Assembly: GCF_024628865.1 (NCBI RefSeq)
Contig: NZ_CP102384.1
Coordinates: forward strand, 2,615,001-2,679,000
Reading direction: 5' to 3'
Length of the DNA: 64,000 nt
Source: Sphingopyxis sp. DBS4
GTDB taxonomy: Bacteria > Pseudomonadota > Alphaproteobacteria > Sphingomonadales > Sphingomonadaceae
This document shows positions 600 to 15,406 of the stretch, piece after piece. Numbering within the stretch: the stretch's first letter is position 1; each line of letters begins with the position of its first letter. The notes beneath the pieces were generated by a model, which had not been told where the DNA came from, made no database searches, and saw nothing but the letters and a program-made list of their open reading frames with translations. The translations under genes were made by a program, and so were the position numbers.

Positions 600-618
600 C
601 CCCGGACTTCATCCGGGG
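600..618 (+). repeat. Left copy of the 19-bp target-site duplication of the Cas1 element
   Basis: CCCCGGACTTCATCCGGGG, identical to the copy at 6266-6284 and in the same orientation. The centre CTTCA is not palindromic, so orientation can be judged. The flanking GGTATAGTGAT termini are inverted while this core is direct. Two independent inverted copies of one extended repeat would not give that arrangement. Confidence 0.75.
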
Positions 619-742
619 GGTATAGTGATTGCCGCCGGAATTATCGCTGCTGACCACACCGTCTCGGCAAACCTCGTTCGGCGGCACCCGAATCGCTCAT
701 TTCTTGAGCGTGACGTGACCCCCAGCTTTCCTCCAGCTGAGA

Positions 743-1651
743 TTAGAGCCGGGCGGTTGTTTTGCGCATCAGCGCGGTTGAAGCAATGGGCTGCGTAGCG
801 GAGCCCGGAGGGCGTAGCGAAGCAGGCCATTGCTTATTCAGTTCAGCGGCGAACGCCGCCGGGGTTGCGTAGCCAAGGGACGAGTGTGGTCTCTCCCGGT
901 TGTAATCCTCGACCCAGGCAGCGATCTCGACCCGAGCATGGGCAAGACTCATGAACAGGGTCTCATTCAGCAGCTCGTCGCGCATGCGACCGTTAAAGCT
1001 TTCCACGTAGCCGTTCTGCATCGGCTTGCCCGGGGCGATGTAATGCCACTCCACGCCGCTCTGGCCGCACCATGCGAGCACGGCATTGCTGGTGAGCTCG
1101 GTGCCATTATCGCTGACGATCATCCCCGGCTTGCCGCGCTGTGCGATCAGCTCGGTCAGCTCGCGCACGACACGGCGCCCCGAGATCGAGGTGTCGGGCA
1201 CCGCTGCCAGGCACTCCCGGGTCACGTCATCGACCACGTTGAGAACGCGGAATCGCCTGCCCGACGCCATCTGGTCATGAACGAAGTCGAGGCTCCAGCG
1301 CTGGTTCGCCAGTGCCAGCACCGGAGCAGGTGCCCTCGTGCCGACAGCACGCTTGCGGCTGCGTCGCCGCCTCACCGCCAGACCTTCTTCCTTGTAGAGC
1401 CGCTGGGTCTTCTTCCGGTTGATCATCACGCCTTCCCGGCGCAGCAGGATATGCAAACGGCGATAGCCGAACCGTCGACGCTGGTTGGCCAGCCCGCGCA
1501 GCTTCTCGCGCAGAGCAGTGTCATCGTCCCGGGTGGAACGATAGCGCACGCTCTTGCGATCGGCATCGATGACACGGCACGCCCGCCGTTCGCTCATCCC
1601 GTGGCACGCCTGCAGATGAGCGACAGCTTCCCGCTTCGCGGCGGGCGTCAA
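743..1651 (-). CDS. IS3-family transposase OrfB (DDE integrase core)
   Basis: 302 residues with an rve-type integrase core. The catalytic triad is visible as D122 (LDFVHD), D181 (VSDNGTEL) and E217 ([13 protein letters not shown]). A C-terminal [12 protein letters not shown] motif is characteristic of the family. The N-terminus holds the HTH_21-like region with [12 protein letters not shown]. It overlaps the end of orfA by 4 bp. The full transposase is probably made by -1 frameshifting from orfA. It looks intact. Confidence 0.93.
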
Positions 1652-1914
1652 AACTTTTTTGCCAGAAGATCCTTCAACGCAGCCTGGTCCAGCATTGCAT
1701 CGGCCAGAAGCCGCTTGAGCCTGGCGTTCTCGCTCTCGAGCTCTCGCAGGCGCCGGGCCTCGGATACCTCTAGGCCGCCATACTTGGCCTTCCAGTTATA
1801 GATCGTCGCTTCAGACACACCGTGCCGCCGGGCGAGATCAGCGGTCTTCGCGCCCGCTTCTGCCTCCTTCAGCACCCCAATGATCTGCTCTTCTGAAAAC
1901 CTTGCACGCTTCAT
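1648..1914 (-). CDS. IS3-family transposase OrfA (HTH)
   Basis: 88 residues: an HTH_Tnp_1 domain ([14 protein letters not shown], then [17 protein letters not shown]) followed by a leucine-zipper-like coiled coil ([19 protein letters not shown]). It binds the IS termini. Near its 3' end the minus strand reads GCA AAA AAG TTT TGA, a classical A-AAA-AAG slippery site that would shift ribosomes into orfB. Confidence 0.92.
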
Positions 1915-1977
1915 CGTCTGTCCTTCCTTCAGGCCAGACTCTAATCGTTCGTGGAGGAAAATCAGGGGGTCACGTCA

Positions 1978-2098
1978 ATCGGACTGGCGCTTCGTTGGCG
2001 CGCGCATGGCCTCGCGCCTGTGACCGGCTCAAACCGCGCTTGGCCGCATTGGCAATGCGGCGCCGATATTCTGCACGAAAATCTCGTGTTCTGGCCAC
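1978..2098 (-). pseudogene. Small gene fragment cut by IS no. 1 (5' part only)
   Basis: A GTG start preceded by GGGAG opens a frame beginning VARTRDFRAEYRRR and containing RGLSRSQARGHAR. I recall this pattern from short uncharacterised proteins carried by alphaproteobacterial plasmids and islands. The frame runs into the IS terminus at 1977 after about 40 codons. If the IS and one 4-bp duplicate were removed, the frame would resume on the left side (RFGCRRTRFAETVW) and stop inside the REP sequence near 609. The 3' reconstruction is uncertain. Confidence 0.5.
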
Positions 2099-2211
2099 GT
2101 TAGACTCCCTACTTCGCAGCGAATCATTCGCTGCACTTCTGGGAGCTTGCGGCCGTTGCCGGGGCCGTTAGGAGAGTCCGAAATTGCTCAAATGATTATG
2201 GTCTGTTTCGA

Positions 2212-2817
2212 TCAGGTGAACAGATCGGGATGCGTCCTGCGATGACGCCGGATTGTGCTTTCGCCAATTCTGCATTTGCCGGGAAATTGCGCCGGAAACA
2301 TCGTCGCCGCCATTTCCTGAATCTCGATGTTTTGCGTCGATTTAGGCACGTTTAGAAAATTGGGATTTGCCGATTTCAAAGCGTCCCATGCAACTTTCGC
2401 TATCATTATCAGGGTGGGACGACCCGAAGAGTTTGCCTTCGATGCTTCCAAAGGATTTGCAGGCGGCGCACGGCAAATTCGGACATCGCGGAATTCACGG
2501 CCCAAGCCCCCTATTGCCGAATTAACGGCATCAATTTCCAATTCTGCCGACAAGAACAGATTTTGGGGAATTTCTCGAATATCGAGAGAATTGTCATCCG
2601 GTGAAATGCCCAAAGCGATGAATTCGCCGTCTGCTAAGGCATCCGTCAATATTCCAAGCCGCTCGCGTTCCAGCCACTTTGATCGAGCAGGCGATTGACC
2701 GCTATCGCGATATTTTTCCCGATGTTCATGGCCCGCCGATTCCCACGCGGCAAAGGCCACGTCATCAGCGTTTTGCCAATTGGTCCTGAGCGGAGAATTA
2801 GGGTCGAATATGTGCAT
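2212..2817 (-). CDS. Hypothetical protein, possible C-terminal HTH
   Basis: 201 residues, divergent from cas1 with only 63 bp between the starts, so the two genes share a promoter region. I do not recognise the family. The last about 30 residues (GESTIRRHRRTHPDLF) look like the recognition-helix part of a resolvase/homeodomain-type HTH. The central part (SSGRPTLIMIAKVAWDAL) is otherwise unremarkable. No membrane segment or signal peptide is visible. Codon use is AT-richer than in the core genes, as for cas1. Its position suggests a regulator or accessory DNA-binding factor of the Cas1 element, but this is inference from context. Confidence 0.65.
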   Translation of the reverse strand: MHIFDPNSPLRTNWQNADDVAFAAWESAGHEHREKYRDSGQSPARSKWLERERLGILTDALADGEFIALGISPDDNSLDIREIPQNLFLSAELEIDAVNSAIGGLGREFRDVRICRAPPANPLEASKANSSGRPTLIMIAKVAWDALKSANPNFLNVPKSTQNIEIQEMAATMFPAQFPGKCRIGESTIRRHRRTHPDLFT

Positions 2818-2880
2818 TTAACGCCCAGAAAACAGGTTAATTCCAGCGACAATTACACGCGATTCTGCTAAAAATCGTGA

Positions 2881-3945
2881 ATGCTATATGCCGCCAATAT
2901 TCACGCCCGCGACGTTGCCGACGAATGGGCAATTCGCGCCGAAAACTGGCTTGCCGAATTGGAGGAATTGCAAAAGCCGCGACGGCTTCGCGAACGCAAT
3001 TCCAATTCGCTGATATTGGCCGGTCACGGCAATTCCCTTCGCGTCGAAAAAGGCGCGCTGATTATCAAACATGGGTTCACCCATTATCCCCAAAAGCAGG
3101 AATGCCGTCGCTATTTCAAAGGCGATTTGGAATTGCCGCGTATCATTGTCCTTTTGGACGGCAGCGGCTCGCTATCCTTCGACGTGCTGGATTGGCTGGC
3201 CGAGCAATCCATTGCGCTCGCCCGGATCAAGGCTTCCGGCGACGTGGCAATTGTGGCGAGCGGCGATGGCTTTGCTGCGGATCAAACCAAGATCGACTGG
3301 CAACGCGAAACATTGGCCTGCCCGAAACGGCGCATGGCGTTCGTGCAAGATTTGATCGCGGGGAAGCTGAGGAACAGCATCGCCACCCTTTCGGGGCATT
3401 TGCCGCAAACCGTGGATACCGATGCCGCTATCGCGAGGGCCGAACGCGGGATTGCGGAGCTTGGGAGGCCACTGGACGATTTACAGCAGGTGCGAGCGAT
3501 TGAGGGCGAATGCGCCTCGCTCTATTTTCGCGCTTGGCGGCACCTGCGTCCGCAATGGAAAATCTCGAAACGATATCCGGTGCCGGATAGCTGGCTGACC
3601 TATCGGGGTCGCAGTTCGGTCCACGAATGCAAACCGGAAAATCGCCGCGCTACCGACCCGATTAACGCCATGCTCAACTATGGCTATGCGGTCATACACA
3701 GCAAATTGCAGGTCATAGCCATCGCCGATGGCTACAGCCCGCTTCTCGGCATCATGCACCGGCAAAAGCGAACCAGCGTCAGCTATATTCTCGACATGCT
3801 GGAACCGGAACGCCCTCGCGTTGACGCCGCCATATTGGATTTTGTGCAATCCCGCACGTTCACCGGGGCCGATTTCATCTTGCGCAAAGATGGTGCTTGC
3901 CGCCTGTCGCCACAGCTAGCACGGGTTGTGGCCCAGTTGGTCTAG
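2881..3945 (+). CDS. Solitary Cas1-family integrase (casposase-like)
   Basis: 354 residues, close to normal Cas1 length. The N-terminal beta domain spans about 43-125, with LILAGHGNSLRVEKGALI and GSGSLSFDVLDWLAEQ. The alpha-helical catalytic domain follows. All expected active-site positions are present: E208 in IEGECASLYF, H293 in LLGIMH, and D305 and E308 in ILDMLEPERPRVD. The conserved DPINAMLNYGYAV segment lies at 259-271. No cas2, effector genes or CRISPR array were seen nearby. Known Cas1 proteins integrate DNA at repeats, and casposases move whole transposons. The terminal inverted repeats and direct repeat around this island suggest the second role. The gene ends 4 bp into the convergent XRE gene. 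No strong ribosome-binding site is visible, so the exact start is less certain than the family. Confidence 0.88.
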   Translation: MLYAANIHARDVADEWAIRAENWLAELEELQKPRRLRERNSNSLILAGHGNSLRVEKGALIIKHGFTHYPQKQECRRYFKGDLELPRIIVLLDGSGSLSFDVLDWLAEQSIALARIKASGDVAIVASGDGFAADQTKIDWQRETLACPKRRMAFVQDLIAGKLRNSIATLSGHLPQTVDTDAAIARAERGIAELGRPLDDLQQVRAIEGECASLYFRAWRHLRPQWKISKRYPVPDSWLTYRGRSSVHECKPENRRATDPINAMLNYGYAVIHSKLQVIAIADGYSPLLGIMHRQKRTSVSYILDMLEPERPRVDAAILDFVQSRTFTGADFILRKDGACRLSPQLARVVAQLV

Positions 3946-4208
3946 CTGGCGGGCTTCCGACCGGGCCGCAATCCCTTTTGCTGGCCAGCGTCATTCACCG
4001 GCTGGAAAAATTCGAGCAATTCGATGCCCAATATGCGGGCGATTTTCTCCAGCGTATCGACGCTCGGATTTTCCTCCCCGCGTTCGATGCCGCCGAGATA
4101 GGAGCGATCAACGCCAGCATCGAAGGCAAGCTGCTCTTGCGAAACAGCTTGGGCAACGCGAACGCGCTTCAAGTTTTGCCCGACAAGTTTCCGCCCTTGC
4201 ATGGGCAT
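3942..4208 (-). CDS. XRE-family transcriptional regulator
   Basis: 88 residues with a single lambda-repressor-type HTH (about 10-65): QNLKRVRVAQAVSQEQLAFD, then RSYLGGIERGEENPS, then TLEKIARILGI. It is convergent with cas1 and the stop codons overlap by 4 bp. Its upstream region faces the lipoprotein gene. It probably controls genes of the Cas1 element, as small Cro/C-type regulators often do in mobile elements; the target is not known. Confidence 0.9.
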   Translation of the reverse strand: MPMQGRKLVGQNLKRVRVAQAVSQEQLAFDAGVDRSYLGGIERGEENPSVDTLEKIARILGIELLEFFQPVNDAGQQKGLRPGRKPAS

Positions 4209-4306
4209 GATGGACAGTATTTGAAGGATATAAAACCACTGGATATATCCATCATATTAAGGTTTTCCCGCTAATTCCGACTGATCGAATGGCAGCGGAG
4301 GTGCGC

Positions 4307-4756
4307 ATGTTTCGGCAATTTTTTCCGGTCGCTTTTGGCTTGATGCTGGCAGGGTGCGGCATATCGGAACCAGACTATTCCGGTTCCTATGTGGGCGGTG
4401 ACGAGAACGCCCTTATCCAGTTGCAGATTGTCGAAGCGAGCGGCGGGAATATCAACGGCAGCGTCACCGCATCCCTGCTAGATTACAACGCCGGGAAATT
4501 GAAGCAGACGACAAAAGCAATCACTGGCGTTCGCCGGGGCGAGCAATTCAGCTTGCTTGCGCATCACAATGAATTCGGGGCAGCGGATGCGCCGCTATCT
4601 CTCGAAGCTGAGGGCAATTCCCTGATTCTTAAAGTTCCAGCCACCGGCCAGATAATCGAATTGGCTTCTATGGACCAAAATCAATACCGGGATCGGCTCA
4701 CCAAATTTGCCAGCGCCCTAAATGCTAACGACGTTGGTTTGCTCCCCGACGATTGA
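4307..4756 (+). CDS. Small lipoprotein of unknown function
   Basis: 149 residues from the ATG preceded by GGAGG; an upstream in-frame ATG at 4289 lacks a site and would spoil the signal peptide. The N-terminus MFRQFFPVAFGLMLAGCG is a lipoprotein signal with lipobox LAGC, so the protein should be anchored to a membrane through the cysteine. The remainder is soluble and beta-rich in appearance, with no motif I recognise. It lies between the XRE regulator and the nuclease inside the Cas1 element. Confidence 0.7.
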   Translation: MFRQFFPVAFGLMLAGCGISEPDYSGSYVGGDENALIQLQIVEASGGNINGSVTASLLDYNAGKLKQTTKAITGVRRGEQFSLLAHHNEFGAADAPLSLEAEGNSLILKVPATGQIIELASMDQNQYRDRLTKFASALNANDVGLLPDD

Positions 4757-4866
4757 AATTATCTCCGGGCGACACTTGCAGCGCAGGCAATTCGCAATGA
4801 TACTGATTGGCCGGATAAGCTGTCCGAACCCATCACCATGATAAACAGCGGGCCGAAGATTCTCTC

Positions 4867-6150
4867 ATGACTGAAATAGTCCAACACCCCAGCCATGCCG
4901 ATCTGGAAAACCTATTTGTTAATAACACCGACATCGATCGCCTAGAAATATATCTCAATCGCTTCAACCCTATTCGTGTCATGCGGATGGAAAGTATGGA
5001 GGTCCGCCATTCGAATATTCTCGGCTGGCTGCTCGATCCATCGGAAACGCATGGCCTAGGTGACCGCTTTTTGAGGGCATTCCTAGCTGAAGCTATGAAG
5101 GGCGAGAGTGCAAAAGGCTGTCCGACTGCAATCGATATCGTCCAAGCTGATCTTCGCGACATGGAGGTGCGTCGCGAATGGCAGCACATTGACCTCTTCC
5201 TACTTTCCCGCCGGAACAACTGGGCCTTCATAGTCGAGAATAAATTCCATTCGTCCCAGCATAGCGGACAGCTTGCGAGATACGTTGAAAAGGTCAGGAC
5301 TGCATTCGAACCGGAAGAAGGGCGGCTGGACATCAAGGGGATATTCCTGACCCTGCACGATGAAGACCCCGAAGATGCCAGCTATGCGTCAATCGGGTAT
5401 GATGCAATCTGCGACCTGCTGCCTCGCGTAATAGATGCAGAGGGGCAGTCCCTCGCACAACAAGTTCGAATTTTTATCGAACACTATATCGAAATTATCA
5501 GAGAGGCGGCGGGCATGAGTGAAGAACGGGACCAGATGGAACAGTTAGCCCGTTCGCTATACCGCCAACACCGCAAAGTTCTTGATTTTATATGGGATTA
5601 TGGATCATCGACAAACTTCCTACTCGCCCGCGATGAAGTTTTCGGAGATGACTGGGGCGATGGGGCCGTAGTCAAAGCCGGAAAAATCAGCCTCGTTAGC
5701 TTTTGGAGCGGCGGGGAGCAGTTTAGTTTCCTGCCATTGAATTGGTATGAAGCACTTAGCAAAAATGGGCATTCTTGGACCGGATGCGAAAATTGGTGGT
5801 CGGGTTATCCGCTGATCTGCTGGATGCAGCTATTTCAGAGCGATAAAGGAACGGAAGGCTCCGTGCGCTTGGTCGCCGAGATTGGTCCTCTTCAGAATTT
5901 TGAATTGCGAAAAAAGCTGATCGAAGCAATTCAAGCCGTCGCGGCAGAAAAGGGAATACCGCAAATTCGGTTTCAAAAAACCGCGTCCAATGAAGGGAAA
6001 AAATACTCAAAATTCTTGAAGGACAATAGCATATCTATCAATGATGTTCAGGACGTCGAAGAGATAAGTAAGGCTATATCTAGGCTTCTAAAGAATTTCG
6101 TTCCATGTTTTGATGCTGTTTCGTTAGCCTTGGATGACTTTACCAACTGA
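4867..6150 (+). CDS. PD-(D/E)XK nuclease-superfamily protein
   Basis: 427 residues. The N-terminal 140 residues match the PDDEXK_4-type pattern. E45 lies in MEVRHSNILGWLLDP, D109 in HIDLFLL, E124 and K126 in FIVENKF, and Q135 in SGQLARYV; these are the metal-binding and catalytic positions of the superfamily. The C-terminal half is soluble and unassigned. Such proteins are common cargo of islands and some restrict foreign DNA. It is the last gene before the right terminus of the Cas1 element, 105 bp away. A role in host defence or in processing element DNA is inference. Confidence 0.8.
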   Translation: MTEIVQHPSHADLENLFVNNTDIDRLEIYLNRFNPIRVMRMESMEVRHSNILGWLLDPSETHGLGDRFLRAFLAEAMKGESAKGCPTAIDIVQADLRDMEVRREWQHIDLFLLSRRNNWAFIVENKFHSSQHSGQLARYVEKVRTAFEPEEGRLDIKGIFLTLHDEDPEDASYASIGYDAICDLLPRVIDAEGQSLAQQVRIFIEHYIEIIREAAGMSEERDQMEQLARSLYRQHRKVLDFIWDYGSSTNFLLARDEVFGDDWGDGAVVKAGKISLVSFWSGGEQFSFLPLNWYEALSKNGHSWTGCENWWSGYPLICWMQLFQSDKGTEGSVRLVAEIGPLQNFELRKKLIEAIQAVAAEKGIPQIRFQKTASNEGKKYSKFLKDNSISINDVQDVEEISKAISRLLKNFVPCFDAVSLALDDFTN

Positions 6151-6265
6151 CGAGCGAAAGCTGGAACGCACATGCGCCTTCCCACGGATGGCGGCAATCT
6201 CTCGCTTCCAGCCGAAATCCTGATCTGTGGTCATCCGAATAATTTATTCCCACGATCACTATACC

Positions 6266-6284
6266 CCCCGGACTTCATCCGGGG
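6266..6284 (+). repeat. Right copy of the 19-bp target-site duplication of the Cas1 element
   Basis: Same 19 bases as at 600-618. To its right the sequence continues TCCCGCTCAGCG and then a second hairpin arm up to about 6350, as expected for the remaining half of the interrupted REP-like element. Confidence 0.75.
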
Positions 6285-6352
6285 TCCCGCTCAGCGACGG
6301 GGACAAGCGGGACCCCGGATCAAGCCTGTCCTGAGCTTGTCCAAGAGTCCGG
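6285..6352. repeat. Remaining half of the REP-like hairpin interrupted by the Cas1 element
   Basis: TCCCGCTCAGCGACGGGG is followed by AAGCGGGACCCCGGATCAAG and further complementary arms, a typical dispersed hairpin repeat. With the 19-bp direct repeat it forms the presumed pre-insertion site. Confidence 0.6.
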
Positions 6353-6467
6353 GTACCGATATTGTAAATTTCCCATAATCGGCAATTTTCACCATATCAC
6401 CGCAAAAATCTCGTTGAAATAAAATATCCGAACCCAAAAAACCCCGGTTAACCGCCAATGAATGAAA

Positions 6468-6485
6468 TTGGCACGCCTCCTGCAT
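6468..6485 (+). promoter_or_regulatory. Sigma-54 (-24/-12) promoter of the psp-like genes
   Basis: TTGGCACGCCTCCTGCAT matches TGGCACG-N4-TTGC except for one base. The GG and GC elements are 12 bp apart, the diagnostic spacing for RpoN. Transcription would start near 6495, about 45 bp before the first start codon. Phage-shock genes are classically RpoN dependent, which fits the PspC protein downstream. Confidence 0.75.
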
Positions 6486-6540
6486 TACATCGGGCATCCA
6501 CCGGATGGCCCGGCGGACCCATATAGGAAGGACAAGATCA

Positions 6541-6669
6541 TGGCCCATTTCAACGTCGACTCGCTCAAGAGCTACGCCATCGCGGCGGTTGCTTCGCTCT
6601 ATTGCTCGATGCTGTTCCTCGCCGCTGTCGGCCCGAACGCTGCGCATTTCAGTGGGCTGGTCGCCTGAC
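6541..6669 (+). CDS. 42-residue single-pass membrane peptide
   Basis: The start is the ATG preceded by AGGAAGGA; a longer upstream frame lacks a site. MAHFNVDSLKSYAIAAVAS begins a short protein with one hydrophobic segment (about 11-31), ending AAHFSGLVA. It is the first gene after the sigma-54 promoter and lies 57 bp upstream of the PspC-domain gene. Its job is unknown; position suggests an envelope-stress accessory peptide. Real expression is plausible because of promoter, site and spacing. Confidence 0.6.
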
Positions 6670-6726
6670 CAGCCCCGAAAGGCCACCAAGAACGCCGGCC
6701 GTCCGGCCGGGATCGAAAGGAAAGAC

Positions 6727-6906
6727 ATGAACCAGGGTTTTCGCAAGAATCGTCGCAGCGGGATGATCTTCGGCGTGTGCGCCGGGATGGCCGACCAGTT
6801 CGGCATCGACGTCTTGTGGACGCGCGTCGCTTTCGTCGCCCTGACATTGCTGGGCTTCGGCCTGCCGCTGCTGCTGTACCTCGCCGTCGCGATCCTCGCG
6901 CCCTAG
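6727..6906 (+). CDS. PspC-domain membrane protein
   Basis: 59 residues, almost entirely one PspC domain. FRKNRRSGMIFGVCAGMADQ is the domain's opening, followed by a transmembrane segment (about 29-57) ending in LYLAVAILAP. PspC proteins sense or relay inner-membrane stress. A site GAAAGGAAAG precedes the start. It is followed by a strong terminator. No PspA, PspB or PspF homologue lies in the window. Confidence 0.85.
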   Translation: MNQGFRKNRRSGMIFGVCAGMADQFGIDVLWTRVAFVALTLLGFGLPLLLYLAVAILAP

Positions 6907-6969
6907 GACAGCGAAGGGCCGGCGGCCGCAAAGGCCCATCGCGCCGGCCCGCATATTCCCCAAAGAACC

Positions 6970-7006
6970 AAGGGCCCGCCGGCCATGCCGGTGGGCCTTT
7001 TATTTT
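6970..7006 (+). terminator. Rho-independent terminator after the pspC-like gene
   Basis: A GC-rich hairpin (GGGCCCGCCGGC, short loop, GCCGGTGGGCC) is followed by TTTTATTTT. Confidence 0.8.
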
Positions 7007-7031
7007 GTCGAGCTACTATCTTTTATCGCGC

Positions 7032-7113
7032 CACTATTTCGTCATTCCCGCGAAAGCGGGAACCCAGAGCGTGCGTCGGCTGATCCCACACTGGGTTCCC
7101 GCTTTCGCGGGAA
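7032..7113. repeat. REP-like double hairpin, left part (split by the 15-kb element)
   Basis: CGTCATTCCCGCGAAAGCGG starts the first hairpin, and TTCCCGCTTTCGCGGGAA (7096-7113) is the second. In the intact copy at 54,712-54,785 the second hairpin continues into TGACGAAG; here it runs into ACACCGATGTTATAAC of the integrated element. The missing TGACGAAG is found 15 kb away at 22,128. Confidence 0.85.
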
Positions 7114-7131
7114 CACCGATGTTATAACTCG
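7104..7131. other. attL of the 15-kb serine-recombinase element
   Basis: The chromosomal half is the palindromic hairpin centred on the dinucleotide TT at 7104-7105. The element half is the arm ACACCGATGTTATAACTCG (7113-7131). TTCGCGGGAA (7104-7113) is repeated at 22,118-22,127. Both the symmetry of the hairpin and the symmetry of the rebuilt attP place the crossover at the same TT. Confidence 0.75.
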
Positions 7132-7423
7132 CTGAAGGTTGTTATTTGAACCTTGAGCAGTCCGCTGCTGCCTACACCCCCTTCCGGATATCGAAGAAGC
7201 CGACAATATTCGGATCGGTGGAGGAGTTGAGCGGAATAAGTGTAAGGGCGAGGGAGCCGATTTGGCGTATCCCGAAAAATCGATCCAATCTGGTCATAAT
7301 TCATTTGTTTTCAGAGGGGTGCGGCGATGTTCCGAATTGACGGTGGGAATAGCACCGGTACACATGCTCTAATACCTCGGAAGCACTGCTTTCATTCTGG
7401 CGAGTCGTTGGGGAGACGATTGC

Positions 7424-7660
7424 ATGGGGGCATTCAGGAATATAGCCAGCCCCGTAGCGTTTGCAGTCTTCATTGCCGGCTTGGCACCGCCTGCACTTGC
7501 GACAGAAACCATCACCTACACCTATGACGCCAAGGGCCGGTTGGTGAAGGTCGTGCGCACCGGCACGGTGAACAACAATGTCACCGCCGAATATACCCAT
7601 GACAAGGCCGACAACCGCACCCGGCTGAAAGTGACCAACTCGCCCAATCCGCCGCCCTGA
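7424..7660 (+). CDS. Small secreted YD-repeat protein
   Basis: 78 residues with a Sec signal peptide (about 1-27, ending ALAT) and one RHS/YD repeat (ITYTYDAKGRLVKVV). The C-terminus is DKADNRTRLKVTNSPNPPP. GGGGAGA lies upstream of the start. It is the first gene of the left RHS locus. A copy of its last about 22 codons lies inverted at 17,176-17,243. The 300 bp between attL and this gene hold no other gene I can support. Confidence 0.7.
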   Translation: MGAFRNIASPVAFAVFIAGLAPPALATETITYTYDAKGRLVKVVRTGTVNNNVTAEYTHDKADNRTRLKVTNSPNPPP

Positions 7661-7703
7661 GACTTGATCTCGTTCAGGGGCTAATTTGACGGGGGGCGAG
7701 TGG

Positions 7704-8396
7704 ATGTCGGGGCGAACGAGATTAGATGGTAGGCGATTTTCCTCCCGGCTGCTGTTTGGATGGTTTTTCCTTGTCATGGTCCTGGCTGGATCAGGCACAG
7801 CGAATGCTCAAGGTTGGCTCTTCAAAGGCGACATCACGCCCAATCGCGAAATCGTGGACGGCCGCGGCGTCGACGTGCAGTTTGGCGAAATCAGCGTCGC
7901 AACGGAACCGGTTGGCGTCGGCGATTTGTCTTCAGCGGCCAGTTGGTCTGGCATCACGGATTTTAGCAAGTTCCGTGCCTATGTGGCAGGAGGAACATCC
8001 GGTGATCGCTATGTCTTCCTGCATGGCAAGACCATCAAATTCCTGTCGAGCGGTGGGGTTTATGTACCCGCCGATGGCGATGGTTCGACGTTGGTCAAAT
8101 CGACATCTGCTCTTGAAGCGTACACCTATACAGACCCCGATGGCGCAATCTATTATTTCCAGCGCGTCAATGCCGACGATCAGCGGATGTCGGGTGCGAT
8201 GAATATTCGCGGGTATCTTATGACTGTAAGCCGGCCCGACGGACGCAAGCTCGAATATGCCTATAAGGGAGTAGAGGACGCCGAGGTCTGCGGACACACA
8301 TGCTATTATCCCTATATGGTGCGCGTGCAGGCGATCGTCAGCAGCGACGGCTATATGCTGAATGGACTGCCCGCGATGACTGGTCCGGTTGCATAG
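7704..8396 (+). pseudogene. RHS N-terminal (RHS-A) protein, truncated by IS no. 2
   Basis: The frame opens MSGRTRLDGRRFSSRLLFGW, followed by a signal peptide ending ANAQ, and continues as a beta-rich extracellular protein with FRAYVAGGTSGDRYVFLHGK and SRPDGRKLEYAYKG. It has the layout of the intact 556-residue partner at 15,444-17,114 but stops after about 230 codons, with its last codons inside the IS terminus. The downstream RHS-core toxin gene expected in this order is gone. It may still be translated, but the protein would be incomplete. Confidence 0.65.
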
Positions 8397-9293
8397 TTAG
8401 TTGAAGATCGCCTCCGATGCCAGCCTGGGCGGGAGGCGGAGCGCAGCGGAGCCGAGCGGCCAGGCTGGCATCTTGATCGTTTCCGGAGTCGGTGGTTGGT
8501 ATCCGAGGCTGCTGTGCGGCCGGAGGCGATTGTAATGATCGCGCCACCAGCCGGTGACGCACCGGACCTCCTCCAGGCTGTAGAAGATTTCACCATTGAG
8601 CAGTTCGTCGCGAAGACGGGCATTGAAGCTCTCGATATAGCCATTCTCCCATGGGCTGCCGGGCTCGATATAGAGGGTAGTGACGCCGAGCCGCCCGAGC
8701 CATTCACGCACCGCATGGGCAACGAACTCGGGGCCGTTGTCGGACCTAATATGCTCGGGTGGGCCATGTTCGATGAACAGATCGGCGAGGACCTCGATGA
8801 CGTCGTTCGACCGGAACCGCCGCAGCGGCACCATCGCCAGGCATTCCCGGCTATGCTCGTCGATGATGTTGAGCATCCGGAACTTCCGGCCGTTGTGCGT
8901 CTGATCCTCGACAAAGTCGTAGGACCACACATGCCCGCGGTGCAGCGGGCGCAACCGGATGCACGACCCGTCGCCAAGCCAGAGCCGGCGGCGCTTCGGT
9001 TGTCTCTTCGGCACCTTTAAACCCTCCCGCCGCCAGATGCGCTCGACCACCGACAGGCTGACCTGCCAGCCGGCATGCCCGAGCAGCGCATGGATACGGC
9101 GATAGCCGTAACGGCCATAATCCTTCGCCAGCGCGATGATGTCGGCCGTCAGGCGTCGCTCGTCGGCATCATCTCTCGGAGGATGTCGCTGTGTCGAGCG
9201 GTGCTGGCCGAGCACGCGGCAGGTCCGTCGCTCCGATACCGGCAACGCACGACGAACCTGCTCAATCGCCTCGCGGCGACGGGAGGGGCTCAA
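8397..9293 (-). CDS. IS3-family transposase OrfB (DDE integrase core)
   Basis: 298 residues. Catalytic residues are D126 (SYDFVED), D185 (RSDNGPEF) and E221 (YIESFNARLRDEL), with the family's [14 protein letters not shown] tail. The N-terminal RYGYRRIHALL is also typical. It is not closely similar to the transposase at 743-1651, so the two IS copies are different elements. It overlaps orfA by 4 bp. Confidence 0.93.
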   Translation of the reverse strand: MSPSRRREAIEQVRRALPVSERRTCRVLGQHRSTQRHPPRDDADERRLTADIIALAKDYGRYGYRRIHALLGHAGWQVSLSVVERIWRREGLKVPKRQPKRRRLWLGDGSCIRLRPLHRGHVWSYDFVEDQTHNGRKFRMLNIIDEHSRECLAMVPLRRFRSNDVIEVLADLFIEHGPPEHIRSDNGPEFVAHAVREWLGRLGVTTLYIEPGSPWENGYIESFNARLRDELLNGEIFYSLEEVRCVTGWWRDHYNRLRPHSSLGYQPPTPETIKMPAWPLGSAALRLPPRLASEAIFN

Positions 9294-9568
9294 AAAGTCA
9301 GCTTCGACGCCTCTTGCAGGATCGCCTTGTCCAGCGCGAGGTCAGCAACAAGCCGCTTCAACCGCGCATTCTCCCGCTCCAAATCCTTCATCCGCCGCGC
9401 CTGATCAACCTTCAGGCCGCCATATTCCTTGCGCCACCGATACAGCGTCTGCTCGGATATACCGATCTGGCGGCAAGCCTCGACCGCCGTCGATCCCCGC
9501 CCCACAAGCACATCCGCCTCACGCAGCTTCGCGATAATCTGTTCCGGCGTAAAACTTTGACGTCCCAT
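9290..9568 (-). CDS. IS3-family transposase OrfA (HTH)
   Basis: 92 residues from the ATG of MGRQSFTPEQIIAKLREAD. An HTH (GISEQTLYRWRKEYGGL) is followed by a coiled coil ([19 protein letters not shown]). Upstream in-frame ATGs would extend it outside the IS and were not used. The end of the gene contains CTTTTTGA, a possible slippage site for fusion with orfB. Confidence 0.9.
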   Translation of the reverse strand: MGRQSFTPEQIIAKLREADVLVGRGSTAVEACRQIGISEQTLYRWRKEYGGLKVDQARRMKDLERENARLKRLVADLALDKAILQEASKLTF

Positions 9569-9628
9569 AACTTTCTCCAATTCTTTCGCCACAATCGGCT
9601 CTCTCTCTAGAATTGGACCAGTTTTTCC

Positions 9629-9712
9629 AAGGCAGACCACCGGCAGCCGCGGCGACGGTGACCGATCCACGCGTGGCGGCCGGAGCGACGCAGCCGGTGC
9701 AGGCGCATCCAT
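9629..9712 (+). pseudogene. C-terminal tail of a virB8-like gene
   Basis: An open frame leaves the IS and ends in AAAATVTDPRVAAGATQPV and a short tail, with its TGA overlapping the ATG of virB9 (ATGA). This is the coupling expected for the gene before virB9 in a type IV secretion operon. Only about 27 codons remain. Assignment to VirB8 rests on position. Confidence 0.5.
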
Positions 9713-10415
9713 GAGGAGCCGGCCGCTCTGGATCCTGTTGGCGGCGCTGTTCGCGACCACGGCGCAGGCGCAGGTGCGCCCGCAGCCGAGTGGTGGCGAT
9801 CAGCGCATGCAGACGGTCGACTATCGGCGCGACCAGGTCGTCGAGATCGGGGGCGCGCCGGGCTATCAGGTTTTGATTGCACTCGCTCCCGACGAGCGAA
9901 TCCAGAATGTCGCGCTCGGCGACAGCGGTGCCTGGCAGGTGGTCGCGAGCCAGAGCGGTAACATGCTCTTCGTTCGCCCGACGCAGGATGGCGTCAGCAC
10001 AAACATGACCGTCATCACCAGCGCACGCTTCTATGCATTCGATCTGGTTCCGGTGGCCTATGGATCGCCGCCCTATGAGGTCCGGTTCAACTACCCCGCC
10101 GATACGGCAAACGGGGCGGCGGGGGCTCTCGACGCGATGGGCGAGCCGGTTGGCAGCTATAGGCTGAGCGGAGTCAAGGCGCTGTGGCCGGTCGCGATCC
10201 ACGACGATGGCGCGAAGACCTATATCGATTGGGCTGCCGATACACCGCTCCCGGCGGCCTTCGTCATCGACGAATATGGCCGCGAGCGGCTCGCGAACGG
10301 CAATATGCGCGGCGGACTCTATGTCATCGACAGCGTCCACCAACAGCTCCTGTTCCGGATCGACCAGAAGGCCGCGCGCGCGAAGCGATACATTCCGAAG
10401 GACAAAACGCCATGA
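9711..10415 (+). CDS. virB9: VirB9/TrbG/CagX-type conjugal transfer protein
   Basis: 234 residues with a signal peptide (about 1-20, ATTAQAQ). The CagX fold is recognisable: GAPGYQVLIALAPDERIQNV near 47-66, the central FVRPTQDGVSTNMTV and the C-terminal MRGGLYVIDSVHQQLLFRID. VirB9 forms the outer-membrane core complex with VirB7 and VirB10. Its stop overlaps the virB10 start (ATGA), so the genes are coupled. The upstream operon part is lost at the IS, so expression needs a promoter within or before the IS. Confidence 0.92.
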   Translation: MRSRPLWILLAALFATTAQAQVRPQPSGGDQRMQTVDYRRDQVVEIGGAPGYQVLIALAPDERIQNVALGDSGAWQVVASQSGNMLFVRPTQDGVSTNMTVITSARFYAFDLVPVAYGSPPYEVRFNYPADTANGAAGALDAMGEPVGSYRLSGVKALWPVAIHDDGAKTYIDWAADTPLPAAFVIDEYGRERLANGNMRGGLYVIDSVHQQLLFRIDQKAARAKRYIPKDKTP

Positions 10416-11515
10416 CGGCGCCCGATGCACCACCGGACGGTCCGGTAGAACCGGCTGAGCGCGGCACGATGCCGCGCGTTGCCCGGCCTTCCTCGGGGCT
10501 GTCCGGCACGGCGATCCTGATCGGCGCGGTCTTGGCGGGCATCCTGCTTTTCTCGATCCTCGATGCGAGACGGCGGGCATTGAGCGCGCCGGCGGTGCGG
10601 CCCGCGCGCGCCGATCTGGTGGCCGCATCCGAAACGCCGCCACCACTTTATATTCCGCCCGCGCAGCCCGCGGCGATGGCGATCCCGCTCACGCAAGCGC
10701 CGGGCCCGGTGCCGATCCAGCCGGCTCCCCAAGGCCGATCGGCCGTGGTGCCGCCACAGGAGCCTGCGCCGATGACCCCGCCGCCACTCTCCTATGCGCC
10801 GCCTCCGCCGGTCGCGCCGCCTCGCTCGGCCAGCGGCGCGATTCTTGTCGTCGATTCATCGCAACCACAAGCGGCTGCGTCAGAGGGCGCTTCTGGTGCT
10901 GGTGGCAGCCCATTGCCCTCGGGAAGTGCCGACGTTGCCGGGCGTAGCAGGGCGGGCGCGATGTCCGACCGCGCGACCACTGTGCCGCAGGGCACGCTCA
11001 TTCCTGCGGTGCTCGAGACGGGGTTTAATTCGACGGGTTCGGGGTTTGCACGCGCTCTCGTCCAACGCGATGTCTATGGATTTGACGGCACGCGCGTGCT
11101 GATCCCGCGCGGCAGCCGGCTGATCGGGGATTATCGTTCCGAGACCAGTCCCGGGCAGAAGCGAGCCTTTGTAACCTGGACACGGCTGATCCGTCCTGAT
11201 GGCGTGACGATCGCGATCGGGTCGCCCACTACCGATCCCGTCGGTGTCGGCGGGGTGCGCGCTAAAGTCGACAGCCATTTCTTCGAACGCTTCGCTGGAT
11301 CGATCCTCCAGACGGCGATGCTGATCGGCGGCAACCTCGCGGCGCGATCGGCTGGGGACTCGGTGGTGGTCGCGTTGCCCGGCTCCTTCCCGGCCGCCGG
11401 CACTGCAACGCCAGCGACCGAGATTCCGCCGACGCTCAGTGTTCGGCAGGGTACGAGCATCAGCGTGTTCGTTGCGCGCGACCTCGACTTCACCGCGGTC
11501 GAGGCGCGGCGATGA
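10412..11515 (+). CDS. virB10: VirB10-type T4SS core-complex protein
   Basis: 367 residues from the ATG that overlaps the virB9 stop; longer upstream frames overlap virB9 and are not needed. There is a short cytoplasmic N-terminus, one transmembrane helix (about 30-48, AILIGAVLAGILLFSILD), a proline-rich periplasmic linker to about residue 145, and a C-terminal TrbI/VirB10 beta barrel. Barrel motifs include VPQGTLIPAVLETGFNS and IPRGSRLIGDYRS. The stop overlaps the virB11 start (ATGA). Its length is normal for the family. Confidence 0.93.
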   Translation: MTAPDAPPDGPVEPAERGTMPRVARPSSGLSGTAILIGAVLAGILLFSILDARRRALSAPAVRPARADLVAASETPPPLYIPPAQPAAMAIPLTQAPGPVPIQPAPQGRSAVVPPQEPAPMTPPPLSYAPPPPVAPPRSASGAILVVDSSQPQAAASEGASGAGGSPLPSGSADVAGRSRAGAMSDRATTVPQGTLIPAVLETGFNSTGSGFARALVQRDVYGFDGTRVLIPRGSRLIGDYRSETSPGQKRAFVTWTRLIRPDGVTIAIGSPTTDPVGVGGVRAKVDSHFFERFAGSILQTAMLIGGNLAARSAGDSVVVALPGSFPAAGTATPATEIPPTLSVRQGTSISVFVARDLDFTAVEARR

Positions 11516-12501
11516 CCGCAACGCAGCTCGCCGATCGGGTTTATCTACGAAGCTATCTTGCCCCGCTCGCCTTTGCGCTCGACCGTGACGATGTCACCGA
11601 TATCTATATCAATCGGCCCGGCGAGATATGGATCGAGACGCTCGGCGGCGGGATCGAGCGCCACGAGGCTTCTGAACTCGACGCCGCGCTATTGCCACGG
11701 CTGGCGCGGCAGGTGGCGGCGCTCAATCATCAGGGGATCAGCCGCGAGCATCCCTTGCTCTCGGCAAGTCTGCCCGACGGGTCGCGCATCCAGATCGCTC
11801 TGCCGCCGGCGACCCGCGGCGAAATCGCGATTGCGATCCGCAAGCATGTGTCCGCCGATTTGACGCTCGATGATTATGTGGCTGCCGATGCTTTCCGCAA
11901 TGTCCGGACCACGGGAGATGCGCAGTCGGCGGCGACTGAACGAGTACGGAAGCTGGCGGATGCCGGCGAGATCGCGGCGGCGCTGCGCGAAGCGGTGCGC
12001 GGGCGGCTCAATATCCTGATCTCCGGCGGCACCTCGTCGGGCAAGACCACCTTCCTCAATGCCTTGATCCGCGAAATCCCGAAAGCAGAGCGGTTGATCC
12101 TGATTGAGGATACGCCCGAGATACGGCTCGTGCACGACAATGCCGTCGGATTGATCGCGGCGCGTAGTGCGCTGGGCGAGGCTGCAGTCACGGCCAACGA
12201 TCTCGTGTCCGCATCGCTCCGCATGCGGCCCGATCGGATCATCCTGGGCGAATTGCGCGGGCCGGAGGCGTTCGCCTTCCTTCGCGCGATCAATACCGGC
12301 CATCCGGGATCAATGACGACGATTCATGCCGATAGTGTCGAGCGGGCGTTCGAGCAGTTGGCGCTACTGGTTCTGGAAGGCGGCTCGACGCTCCAGCGCG
12401 AGGATATTCTCGCTTACGTTCGAACAACCGTGGATTTGGTGTTGCAACTCGGCCGTGATGTGACGGGGCGAAGCGTCTCGGAGATCATGATACGAAAGTA
12501 G
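11512..12501 (+). CDS. virB11: VirB11-type secretion ATPase
   Basis: 329 residues. A Walker A motif GGTSSGKT is at 172-179, preceded by the family's N-terminal domain (DRDDVTDIYINRPGEIW). The Asp box ILIEDTPEIRL, RMRPDRIILGELRGPEAFAF and the His box TGHPGSMTTIHAD follow. VirB11 is a hexameric ATPase that powers pilus assembly and substrate transfer at the inner membrane. It looks intact, but no virD4 or relaxase follows and the T4SS part ends here. Confidence 0.95.
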   Translation: MTATQLADRVYLRSYLAPLAFALDRDDVTDIYINRPGEIWIETLGGGIERHEASELDAALLPRLARQVAALNHQGISREHPLLSASLPDGSRIQIALPPATRGEIAIAIRKHVSADLTLDDYVAADAFRNVRTTGDAQSAATERVRKLADAGEIAAALREAVRGRLNILISGGTSSGKTTFLNALIREIPKAERLILIEDTPEIRLVHDNAVGLIAARSALGEAAVTANDLVSASLRMRPDRIILGELRGPEAFAFLRAINTGHPGSMTTIHADSVERAFEQLALLVLEGGSTLQREDILAYVRTTVDLVLQLGRDVTGRSVSEIMIRK

Positions 12502-12578
12502 AGGGCGGAAAGGAGATTGGGCCAATACGGCGGCAACGGCGCAATGATATGGGTTCTCCCTAAGGACTAAACGACAAG

Positions 12579-12827
12579 TCAATCTGCCCTATCCGCTCGA
12601 TCAAATCTCGGATTCCAATTGCGTGGTTTTTCTAAGCCACCTCCCCACCACGGGCACCCAGCTTTGATCCATTGTTCGCGTAACTGTTCAAATGATTTTG
12701 TTACGTCATCGTAGCCAAATTCCGTTCCACAAGAAGGACAGATGACAAAGGTTGCTTCGCCATCGACATATGCTGGCTCTTCAAGTTCGGGAAAGCCGCA
12801 AACTGGGCAGATGTTCTGTTCGTTCAT
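12579..12827 (-). CDS. Putative immunity protein with CxxC zinc-ribbon pairs
   Basis: 82 residues with two CxxC knuckles, CPVCGFPE and CPSCGTEFGYDD, then LREQWIKAGCPWWGGG and a RNWNP motif. Proteins of this form are often found just downstream of RHS or polymorphic toxins. Its ATG overlaps the TGA of the RHS toxin gene (ATGA), the coupling usual for toxin-immunity pairs. The immunity role is inferred from position and family habit; it is not proven. Confidence 0.75.
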   Translation of the reverse strand: MNEQNICPVCGFPELEEPAYVDGEATFVICPSCGTEFGYDDVTKSFEQLREQWIKAGCPWWGGGLEKPRNWNPRFDRADRAD

Positions 12828-15406
12828 CTAGCGATCTCTCTCTCGAAATAGTCCAGATTAGTTTTCAAACCATGCTGAGCAGTATCCGGTTTGAAATAAG
12901 TTCTGATGTTGCCATCCTTCGACAAAACTCCAAACTCGTTCGTTTTGGGATTGTATCGTACAATGTCGCCGCTCTTCCTTGTTCCTTCGAGCACTCCGCG
13001 ACCCGCTTTTCCGCCGAGAAAATTGCTTGCCGCTTTTTCATAAGCCGCAGCCGTCTTGAAGCCAAATTCCCCGGAATGCTTGGCGAAGTGCGAACTGCGC
13101 AGCGAGCCGGAGGCAAAGCTAAGTGCTTTGGTCGCCGCTCCCTCCAGTCCCAATGCTCGAGCCGCAACTTTTCCGATCATGGTTGCAGCTTTTTCCACCG
13201 GAACGAAAAAAGACGCGATCAGAGGAGTATGATATTTCTCCTGAGCATTCGCTATCTGCTCTGGTACTGGTGTTGGATTCTCACCCCGTTGCGCGGCCTC
13301 GGAATAATCTCGATAGGCCGCCACATATTGTGCCGACTGGTCTAGAGCCTGCTTTCCGTCAGAGTCGATATTATTAACCGGATCGTTCCCCACATAAGTG
13401 TAGAGGTTGACCTGATCGTCATATCCGATGGGATCGGTCTGGAGGAACCGCCCGAGCGTCGGCGAGTAGATGCGGGCCTTGTAATAGTACATGCCGATCT
13501 CGGGCAGCCACGCCTGCCCGGTATACTGGAACCGCCCGACGTTGCCGACCTTGGGGATGCCATATTCGTCGTAGCTGTTGATCGCGATCGCGGCGCCCGT
13601 CGCGTCGGTGACCGCGATAACGCTTCCCTGATGGTCGCTATGCAGCCAGCGCGGGCTCGCGGTGCCGCTGCCCTCGTACCACACCACCGGATCGTCGACG
13701 CTGCTGCCATGCGCATAGCGCCGCAGCAGTGTGCCGCTGCCATTATACTCAGCGACCAGCTCGTCGCCATCGTGCAAAAGGCGCGTCGTGCTACCGCCGC
13801 CCACCGTCTCATAGAGCCGCCCCAGCGGATCATAGCGCAGCGTCGCAGTCTTCGCCCCGCTCGCGCTTACCAGCCGGTTCTCGACGTCATAGACGAACGT
13901 CGTCGATCCGTCCGATGTCAGATTGCCATTCGCGTCATAGGTGAACGAGGCCGCGCCTGCCGCCGTATACTGGTTGAGACCGTTCGCCGTGTAGTTGCGA
14001 TCGACATTGAAGTGCCCGGTCCACGCATAGGCATCATTGTTGCGCACCTGCTGCGTCAGCTGCGACGCCGGCGTATACCCATAGGTAAAGGCCACATCGT
14101 TCGCCGTGCCGGTAACATTGTGCGACAGAGCGTTCAATCGACCGACCGGATCATAACCGAACACCGTGGCCTGGCCATATCGCCCATCCTGCGTCGCCCG
14201 CAGGCCGCGATTGTTATAGCCGTAAGTCACCATGTTGACCGTCGAACCGATCGCGCCCTCATACAGCGTCTTCATCCGGTCGAGCCCGTCGTAGCCATAG
14301 CTGGTCTTCGCAGCATCGGGCCATGTCAGCTCGGTGCGATTGCCGTTCTTGTCGGAAGCATAGGATAGCGTTCGCGTGACCCCATCCATCTTGAGCGCCG
14401 AGGAGGTCATCCGCCCGAACCCATCGTAGGCCGTGGTCAGTCCTTCCGAAGTCGCCGCCGCGCTGTCGAACCGGGCATAGGTCTGGAGGCCCTGCAGGTC
14501 ATAGCCATAATAGACGTCGCGCGTGTGCGTCACCGCCAGCCCGGTCCGCTCGGGCACAATCTTGACCGTGTTGCGATTCAGCGCGTCATACTGATAGGTA
14601 ATGGTACTGCCGTCGCGCTTACGCAGCGAGGTGCGATTGTCGTTGGCGTCATAGCCATATTGCTCGTAATCGGTCGTCGAGACCGTTCCGGTTGTCGTCA
14701 GCGACGGAAAATTCCATTTTACCTGCCGGTCGAACCCATCGTAGGTCATCGACGCCTTATAGCCCCGCGCGTCGGTCAGACTCGTTTGCTTACCATTCGG
14801 GCTATAGGTGTAAGTCGCGTAATCTTGCTGCAGTGCCGTGCCATAGGCCTTCTGGATCTTAAGAAGCCGACCGGTCGCATCGTAGGTGTTTTTAATGATG
14901 CGGTCAGGTCCAAAGCTGCCTTGGGTGCCCAAGGTGCAGGCGCTTGCTGGAAGGCTATCGTAGACCGCCGGGTTCATACGTTGCGCTATACACTCGAGTC
15001 TATCAAGCGCGTCGTAGCTATATTGGTTGAGACTATAACGGGTACCCGCACTCCATAGGCTTTCAGTCGCCTTCAACCCACGGTCGTTCCATGTGATCTC
15101 GGTCCAGCGGGCAACAGAAAAGCCTGTCCATGCTGCCGGTACTACATTGTCCGTTTGAAAGGTCGAGAGCTCGCCTTCCTCTACCTTGATCAGCTGTCCC
15201 GCCGCATTGTAAGTGAGGCGGTTGGCGCGGTAGTTGAGTGGACCCGCGCCATCGGGGTCGGCGTATATTTCCCCCGTCAGACTTCCCAAGATATCGTATC
15301 GATACGCCGTTGTATATTCGCTCGGCCCTTGCGCATAGGCGTGTGAAGTGATTGCCGTCAGCAAAGAGGCAAAGAGGGTTACCGGTGTAGCGCTGATTTT
15401 CTTCAT
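12824..15406 (-). CDS. Secreted RHS-repeat toxin with C-terminal polymorphic toxin domain
   Basis: 860 residues. A Sec signal peptide (about 1-25, SHAYAQ) is followed by many YD repeats (for example YDALNRNTVKIVP and YDGLDRMKTLYE) to about residue 590. The RHS-associated core follows (HSDHQGSVIAVTD, then FQYTGQAWLPEIGMYYYKAR, then GRFLQTDPIGY). After DPVNNIDSDGK the sequence changes to a variable tip (about 690-860) with HFAKHSGEFGF, GDIVRYNPKTNEFGV and GNIRTYFKPD. That pattern resembles tRNase-type toxins related to colicin D, but the assignment is tentative. The shell presumably encloses the toxin until cleavage at the core. The immunity gene follows directly. A signal peptide and no T6SS genes suggest Sec-dependent export. 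Confidence 0.87.
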   Translation of the reverse strand: MKKISATPVTLFASLLTAITSHAYAQGPSEYTTAYRYDILGSLTGEIYADPDGAGPLNYRANRLTYNAAGQLIKVEEGELSTFQTDNVVPAAWTGFSVARWTEITWNDRGLKATESLWSAGTRYSLNQYSYDALDRLECIAQRMNPAVYDSLPASACTLGTQGSFGPDRIIKNTYDATGRLLKIQKAYGTALQQDYATYTYSPNGKQTSLTDARGYKASMTYDGFDRQVKWNFPSLTTTGTVSTTDYEQYGYDANDNRTSLRKRDGSTITYQYDALNRNTVKIVPERTGLAVTHTRDVYYGYDLQGLQTYARFDSAAATSEGLTTAYDGFGRMTSSALKMDGVTRTLSYASDKNGNRTELTWPDAAKTSYGYDGLDRMKTLYEGAIGSTVNMVTYGYNNRGLRATQDGRYGQATVFGYDPVGRLNALSHNVTGTANDVAFTYGYTPASQLTQQVRNNDAYAWTGHFNVDRNYTANGLNQYTAAGAASFTYDANGNLTSDGSTTFVYDVENRLVSASGAKTATLRYDPLGRLYETVGGGSTTRLLHDGDELVAEYNGSGTLLRRYAHGSSVDDPVVWYEGSGTASPRWLHSDHQGSVIAVTDATGAAIAINSYDEYGIPKVGNVGRFQYTGQAWLPEIGMYYYKARIYSPTLGRFLQTDPIGYDDQVNLYTYVGNDPVNNIDSDGKQALDQSAQYVAAYRDYSEAAQRGENPTPVPEQIANAQEKYHTPLIASFFVPVEKAATMIGKVAARALGLEGAATKALSFASGSLRSSHFAKHSGEFGFKTAAAYEKAASNFLGGKAGRGVLEGTRKSGDIVRYNPKTNEFGVLSKDGNIRTYFKPDTAQHGLKTNLDYFEREIAR

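Follow-up and report, generated by a model that had tools for sequence, protein, structure and literature searches.

A solitary cas1 gene, lying between inverted termini with a copy of the same small hairpin on either side, raises the question of what kind of transposon has entered the chromosome of Sphingopyxis sp. DBS4 and how its landing place was chosen. The gene lies in a stretch of 64,000 nucleotides, G000:C1:2615001-2679000, here called the window, within an element that spans 617-6267 (5,651 bp). Among the candidate ancestors of adaptation in clustered regularly interspaced short palindromic repeats (CRISPR) systems, casposons take first place. The element is very probably a decayed member of a bacterial casposon clade that inserts at hairpin dyads and duplicates the hairpin core, with Cas1, we infer, as the mover.

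Ends and duplicated hairpin of the element

The inverted termini noted in the original prediction for this DNA were confirmed and extended to a longer terminal inverted repeat (TIR), GGGGTATAGTGAT-N21-TGACC, which lies at 617-655 on the forward strand and at 6229-6267 on the reverse strand. This pattern matched the 64-kb window at these two places only, even when three mismatches were allowed (chance expectation 0.00, 100 shuffles). In the whole genome the exact form GGTATAGTGAT-N15..25-TGACC was likewise found only at the two ends of the element, and a reversed-pattern control gave no match.

A 19-bp direct repeat, CCCCGGACTTCATCCGGGG, is located at the two ends as left and right copies of a REP-like (repetitive extragenic palindromic) target hairpin at 600-618 and 6266-6284. 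The original prediction was right about this repeat, and only its length needs correction: with the ends written as GGGGTATA, the duplication proper is 15 bp (602-616 and 6268-6282), its centre being unchanged. There are 33 exact copies of CCCCGGACTTNATCCGGGG in the genome, 31 of which read ACTTGATC (with G) and two ACTTCATC (with C), the latter pair being those that flank the element. Since the variant base is confined to the two flanking hairpins, the flanking repeat is a true duplication made on insertion rather than a pair of independent REPs, and the earlier argument from repeat orientation against two chance copies is strengthened. Five of the REP hairpin copies listed in this genome form inverted pairs, 47-48 bp from start to start (e.g. 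G000:C1:746118-746183), resembling bacterial interspersed mosaic elements.

The insertion site lies between a gene which, by eye from its translation, we take to be recF and the next small open reading frame (ORF). An uninterrupted site had been anticipated in related genomes and was found: among 11 genomes searched, nine gave any match (one of them weak), and the site was empty in all eight relatives whose right-hand flank was matched at length, the anchors being 39-122 bp apart. In G042 and G224 another REP-like hairpin, recognised by eye, occupies the orthologous empty site.

Cas1, its relatives and the missing polymerase

The predicted casposase is encoded at 2881-3945 (+) by an open frame of 354 amino acids (PF01867, E 9.2e-34). 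The catalytic residues E208, H293, D305 and E308, already named in the original prediction, are present and are invariant across eight aligned Cas1 proteins. In agreement with the earlier description of a lone cas1, no other cas family was found among the ORFs of the element (five scanned by PADLOC, seven by Pfam and NCBIfam) and no second cas1 was found in the genome; neither cas2 nor an effector gene nor an array was seen with this cas1, no dedicated genome-wide scan for arrays or cas2 having been run.

A profile of the eight Cas1 sequences, compared with solved structures, matched the M. mazei casposase 6opm best (111.5 bits; next 78.9), and Foldseek gave 6opm ranks 1-3 by E-value for the predicted Cas1 structure (mean pLDDT, the predicted local distance difference test score, 72.7). 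In a tree with 41 presumed CRISPR rows, 12 casposon Cas1s formed a clade (100/100) which 6opm joined (97/86), and a first, wider tree with 62 CRISPR rows returned the same grouping at a support of 82 and with a long-branch warning. The reference casposase was 6opm alone, and the CRISPR label of the rows was assumed from distance, except for the PDB row. The split or partial Cas1s of G162, G872 and G536 were left out of the trees, as were loci L134 and L143 (same genomes as L049 and L058), and the 41-row tree also omitted 21 of the 29 rows of the most distant clade. As placed by these trees, the protein appears to group with casposases, apart from the presumed CRISPR Cas1s sampled, as the original prediction had suggested.

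Relatives of the element occur well beyond the window. A scan of genome contigs found one, in Sphingopyxis sp. JAI128, whose Cas1 is the nearest (80% identical) and whose flank shares 87% DNA identity with the window genome; an empty site for the JAI128 element was not shown, its left flank matching nine loci and its right flank none of those. Cas1 matches were found in 43 of 397 genomes of the family, seven of them close (G000, which is the window genome, G168, G326, G245, G090, G154 and G162), in 67 of 385 genomes of the class (newly close: G749 and G519; G536 yielded a Cas1 fragment only, without ends) and, at E 1e-12, in 34 of 388 genomes of the phylum (newly close: G1064, G970 and the split G872). 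The end pattern, searched with a spacer of 15-25, was present at 11 places in 8 of the 397 family genomes, always with a spacer of 21 (reversed pattern: one genome). Five of these eight genomes also carry a close Cas1, that is, five of the seven that do so; single ends were found in G117, G163 and G279, which had no match in the family-genome Cas1 scan.

The fuller relatives carry their genes between inverted ends of about 40 bp. The 13.8-kb element of JAI128 encodes a family B DNA polymerase (PolB), a 121-amino-acid HNH-like protein, an HTH protein, a 216-amino-acid ORF, Cas1, an XRE regulator, a lipoprotein, two RepB/ParB proteins and a serine recombinase. With JAI128, G245 and G162 as references, PolB, HNH-like and HTH genes were found beside cas1 in 8 of 11 loci (JAI128, G245, G162, G168, G326, G154, G749 and G519); the three others are the window, G536 and G090, the last an 11-kb contig on which cas1 alone was recognised. 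Further cases of the set are loci L148 and L149 and contig L151 of G872. PolB was recognised from family B motifs by eye and from weak Pfam matches, one of them above the cut-off; its structural model, of low confidence (mean pLDDT 55.6) and used solely alongside the sequence motifs, matched phi29 DNA polymerase best (Foldseek E 1.4e-7; template modelling scores, TM-scores, 0.25/0.39). The HNH-like assignment of the JAI128 protein follows the pattern CxxCG...HH...CxNCHR, seen by eye, and the protein had no significant Pfam match.

Other traces of the clade were also noted. At L044 (G162, 1744-15309), three copies of one insertion sequence (IS) accompany a cas1 split over two frames, which makes this another decayed copy. 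The cargo at L040 (G245, 11998-14183) includes, by eye, a sigma-factor-like protein and an Na+/H+ antiporter NhaA-like protein. A Cas1 alignment scan of IMG/VR yielded no relatives, none of the 25 stretches with a pattern match being confirmed. Among plasmids, 55 records matched, all below 60% identity, and of the 30 listed 27 bear cas1 or Cas4/Cas1 names and three are unannotated. An unannotated stretch of plasmid NZ_CP147719.1 (Bradyrhizobium sp. 2S1, 223046-223391) aligns with one third of the window Cas1 at 41% identity (E 9e-17); it is closer than the named CRISPR Cas1s among the matches listed and is perhaps the remnant of a casposon Cas1.

In the window copy, an IS3-family element at 711-1977 (-; transposase ORFs 743-1651 and 1648-1914) takes the place that in relatives is filled by PolB, the HNH-like gene and the greater part of the HTH gene. 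It adjoins a stump of the latter at 1979-2098 (-), comprising the first ~40 codons and truncated at IS3, with 76% identity over 37 amino acids to the HTH protein of JAI128; the gene is whole in the relatives. The IS3 element was missing from the original prediction. This IS3 is one of three identical copies in the genome, and its 4-bp flanks, by eye, are AGCG and ATCG; those of the other two copies are perfect repeats (ATGT and ACCG).

These features bear on the view, put forward in the original prediction, that the element belongs to a Cas1 transposon type which is compact by nature and at no time carried a polymerase. No PolB is encoded among the ORFs of the window copy, a search of the rest of the genome with the JAI128 PolB, made without a positive control, gave none, and the ends and cas1 look intact, all of which would suit such a type. 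It is nevertheless very unlikely, given that a relative with an 80% identical Cas1 and seven further loci carry PolB, HNH-like and HTH genes adjoining cas1, and that IS3 and a gene stump fill the place of PolB here; the absence is therefore most likely a loss. The simplest and most likely account is that an IS insertion with an adjoining deletion removed the polB side. The casposon-type assignment and the landing in palindromes have held, the latter as a wider rule than was claimed, and the compact, polymerase-free type has not. The window copy is read here as a decayed casposon rather than a complete one, probably no longer self-sufficient: with polB and the HNH-like gene gone and a stump of the HTH gene left, it would need help in trans to move.

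Hairpin dyads as probable insertion sites

Eight two-ended elements were tried for their duplications, and seven could be measured: CCGGACTTCATCCGG in the window, CCCGCCTTCGCGGG in G168, CCGGCTCAAGGTCGG in G326, CCGGCACAAGGCCGG in G245, CCGGACTTGATCCGG in G162, CCCCATCAAGGGGGG in G519 and CCCCTGCACTAGCGGGG in G1064, with lengths of 14 bp (G168), 15 bp (five times) and 17 bp (G1064). In JAI128 both ends show CCCCGGACTTGATCCGGGG and one of them has additional Gs, for which reason this element fails the strict duplication test. The centre of the duplication coincides with the best dyad centre in five of the seven and is displaced by 0.5 base in G1064 and by 1 base in G519. Except in G1064, length and dyad also agree in parity, the 14-bp duplication of G168 lying on an even dyad and the 15-bp cases on odd ones. 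The hairpins themselves differ in kind: those of G1064 and of the viral contig L119 (below) resemble Rho-independent terminators, with A/T tracts beside the stem (by eye), and the others look like REPs or other hairpins.

Symmetry was further scored over five outer pairs, from a GGGG boundary chosen post hoc, after the sites had been viewed; the centring on dyads was measured independently of it. Taking the better end of each site, 8 of 14 sites reach 5/5 pairs and 11 of 14 reach four, compared with 0.36% and 4.3% of 156,415 background positions that took in elements and genes (binomial 8e-17 and 3e-13). With the window, JAI128 and G162 counted once, the fractions are 6/12 and 9/12 (2e-12 and 1e-10). 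G749, G970, G536 and G154 had no usable end and were excluded before the 14 sites were counted. When the scored stretch was displaced by as many as 20 bases in each of the seven rebuilt sites, the mean score of 4.57 at the true place fell to at most 3.14 at the 40 displaced places; 5/5 was reached by four of the seven at the true place and once elsewhere, in G519, one base off.

In most close relatives examined, then, the insertion target appears to be a hairpin, REP-like or terminator-like and differing from host to host, that is met at its dyad, and this would be a new feature of the clade. The hairpins might instead be coincidental, the element merely entering intergenic DNA that is rich in REPs and terminators: intergenic hairpins are common, three of the 14 sites lack exact symmetry and the background was not restricted to intergenic DNA. 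Coincidence is decidedly unlikely all the same. It does not predict the centring of the duplication on the dyad, and the sliding control keeps the local hairpin richness of the same seven sites and yet loses the score; the five zero-offset elements, of 15 or 14 bp, moreover match the parity of their dyads.

That the hairpins belong to the element, as palindromic ends, is extremely improbable. The same hairpin type does stand at both ends in most members, in keeping with such an origin, but the hairpin varies between hosts and the ends hardly do, stems or A/T tracts run on into host DNA (G168, G1064 and L119), and the window genome has 31 further copies of the hairpin with only two element ends. 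Equally, the serine recombinase present in JAI128, G245 and G168 could be thought the mover and Cas1 its cargo. Such a role is highly improbable, since the recombinase has no match in the elements of the window, G326 and G162, though the ends and the centred duplication are common to them, and since a 14-15-bp duplication between inverted ends is the product of a casposase as described in the relevant parts of PMC6977970.

The end pattern was also found in 16 stretches of IMG/VR, about eight of them distinct by their flanks. Only L119 (IMGVR_UViG_3300012268_000167) gave a cas1 when all 16 were searched with tblastn, and it is also the only one in which GG precedes the pattern and a terminator-like hairpin lies outside. 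In this contig, which carries phage head genes (by eye), the end pattern follows a hairpin of this kind, and roughly 150 bp inward of the end begins the cas1, which is 40% identical over 309 amino acids to that of G245 and is cut short by the contig edge. As the casposon end and cas1 come immediately after a cluster of phage structural genes, the element was probably inserted in a prophage.

Several observations weigh against the reading of the element as a decayed casposon of a dyad-inserting clade. With the window Cas1 as a single query the CRISPR Cas1 7cr6 scored 48.6 bits against 47.6 for 6opm, by TM-score several CRISPR Cas1s (up to 0.61) rank above 6opm (0.49-0.53), and the 6opm row in the trees is partial, besides the long-branch warning on the first of them. 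The AGCG/ATCG flanks of IS3 could reflect one point change and not a deletion scar. No movement of the element was seen. Regarding the target, the parity does not extend to G1064, whose repeat of 17 bp lies on an even dyad, and the background was not intergenic DNA alone. When the 23 ends are counted singly, 12 reach 5/5 and 17 reach four; the choice of the better end alters JAI128 and G1064 only, their other ends scoring 1 (the extra-G run) and 2, respectively. Three of the 14 sites are misfits: G279 is a single end with no hairpin, in G090 a weak hairpin lies between two ends that face each other, and in L119 the hairpin is clear but has its best symmetry, four of five, at 16 bp. In the diverged G970 the ends are GGGATAAGG and the repeat lies off the dyad (by eye), and G749, likewise diverged and with no ends found in 50 kb, does not show the palindrome rule either.

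The two facing ends of G090 (L041, 10870-10963) lie across one short hairpin at a contig end, as tandem casposons sharing a target repeat would.

On balance we lean slightly towards the view that the clade is targeted by palindromic symmetry itself and not by a fixed sequence, the dyad of a G+C-rich hairpin, perhaps extruded, being recognised and its core duplicated; the alternative is recognition of a family of related G+C-rich half-sites. In the most likely mechanism, a two-fold symmetric Cas1 tetramer, as reported for the M. mazei casposase and inferred here, would unite both ends and join their CCCC-3' strands to the two strands of the hairpin, equidistant from the dyad and about 14-15 bp apart, after which gap repair would copy the hairpin core to both sides. 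A palindrome would suit this mechanism by presenting an identical half-site to either half of the complex. REP-like hairpins scattered over the chromosome, of which this genome has 31 further copies, and terminators would offer many landing places outside genes, should any copy be mobile today.

Cargo, significance and comparison with known systems

The remaining genes of the window copy lie on both sides of cas1. Upstream, a 201-amino-acid ORF of unknown function (2212-2817, -) occupies the position of the 216-amino-acid ORF of JAI128, to which it has no similarity at E 1e-3. Downstream follow an XRE-family (HTH_3) regulator (3942-4208, -), with similar genes in relatives, a putative lipoprotein recognised by eye (4289-4756, +; 68% identity over 152 amino acids to its JAI128 counterpart) and, as cargo, a PD-(D/E)XK nuclease (4867-6150, +; PF14281) which PADLOC classes as phage-defence candidate PDC-S26 (E 5.1e-73). 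A short way beyond the casposon on its right, at 7424-10415, the start of a YD-repeat-like protein, a second IS3-type element and a VirB9/TrbG-like ORF were noted by eye, perhaps marking a conjugation gene region.

The characterised casposases compared here, of Aciduliprofundum boonei and M. mazei, use asymmetric, tRNA-adjacent archaeal sites, whereas the alphaproteobacterial clade described here is palindrome-centred. It opens to experiment the old question of how Cas1 acquired its ability to recognise palindromic repeats and to duplicate them, and it supplies probably mesophilic casposases, ready target hairpins and a clear prediction, namely that symmetry and not sequence sets the site. If this is true, transposition would already leave a palindromic repeat on each side of the inserted DNA, copies standing in tandem at a single hairpin, as the end of the G090 contig suggests, would amount to repeat-element-repeat arrays, and a plausible route would lead from casposons to palindromic CRISPR repeats.

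Bacterial casposons have been known since 2014, when family 3 was described with HenMar-C1 of Henriciella marina, StrAlb-C1, NitAL212-C1 and AceAut-C1, one host being an alphaproteobacterium; the parts of that survey compared here name four bacterial hosts only (PMC4046053). The present clade appears to resemble family 3 in its bacterial hosts, in a Cas1 without extra domains (as in HenMar-C1), in the PolB, HNH-like and HTH genes of its fuller members and in having TIRs and target site duplications (TSDs) (PMC4046053). This gene set, which together with Cas1 is the published casposon set, is found in JAI128 and seven further loci, the HNH gene by its motif as seen by eye, and is lacking from the window copy. 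Compared by description, family 3 differs in that the parts of PMC4046053 consulted name no hairpin or REP target and no sphingomonad host, and in that no recombinases are given there for the survey set, whereas serine recombinase and RepB/ParB genes occur in some relatives here. A 2023 paper mentions, in the part consulted, an unpublished survey of bacterial and archaeal casposons (PMC9966878). A palindrome or hairpin target rule was not stated in those parts of the open-licence casposon literature that were searched, which does not show its absence from print, and no open-licence paper linking casposons with repetitive extragenic palindromic sequences was found.

According to the parts consulted, known casposases are tetrameric on DNA, produce duplications of 14-15 bp and can use a symmetrised target (PMC6977970, PMC10359463). 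The M. mazei enzyme (6opm) is close to the present case in its tetramer and 14-bp TSD and in that, in vitro, a symmetrised target serves it no less well than its native site, and the TIR of its element MetMaz-C1 begins GGGATATAG (PMC10359463, as excerpted). MetMaz-C1 differs in inserting beside tRNA-Leu, at an asymmetric CGCA-led site with upstream sequence required. The 354-amino-acid Cas1 here leaves no room for the C-terminal HTH domain that family 2 casposases carry. The A. boonei casposase likewise makes 14-15-bp duplications, but in the account consulted its specificity comes from a one-sided leader motif and it tolerates the loss of much of the TSD (PMC6614799), whereas the site here is symmetric and of a dispersed kind.

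CRISPR Cas1-Cas2 shows a comparable pattern, Cas1 integrating at both borders of an often palindromic repeat that is duplicated. The differences are that the duplication here measures 14-17 bp, against a repeat of 25-50 bp (PMC6977970, in part), and that no cas2, effector or array was seen with this cas1. The hairpin would be copied on landing, much as CRISPR copies its repeats. Insertion sequences such as IS1397 and IS621 also land in dispersed REP palindromes, with transposases unrelated to Cas1.

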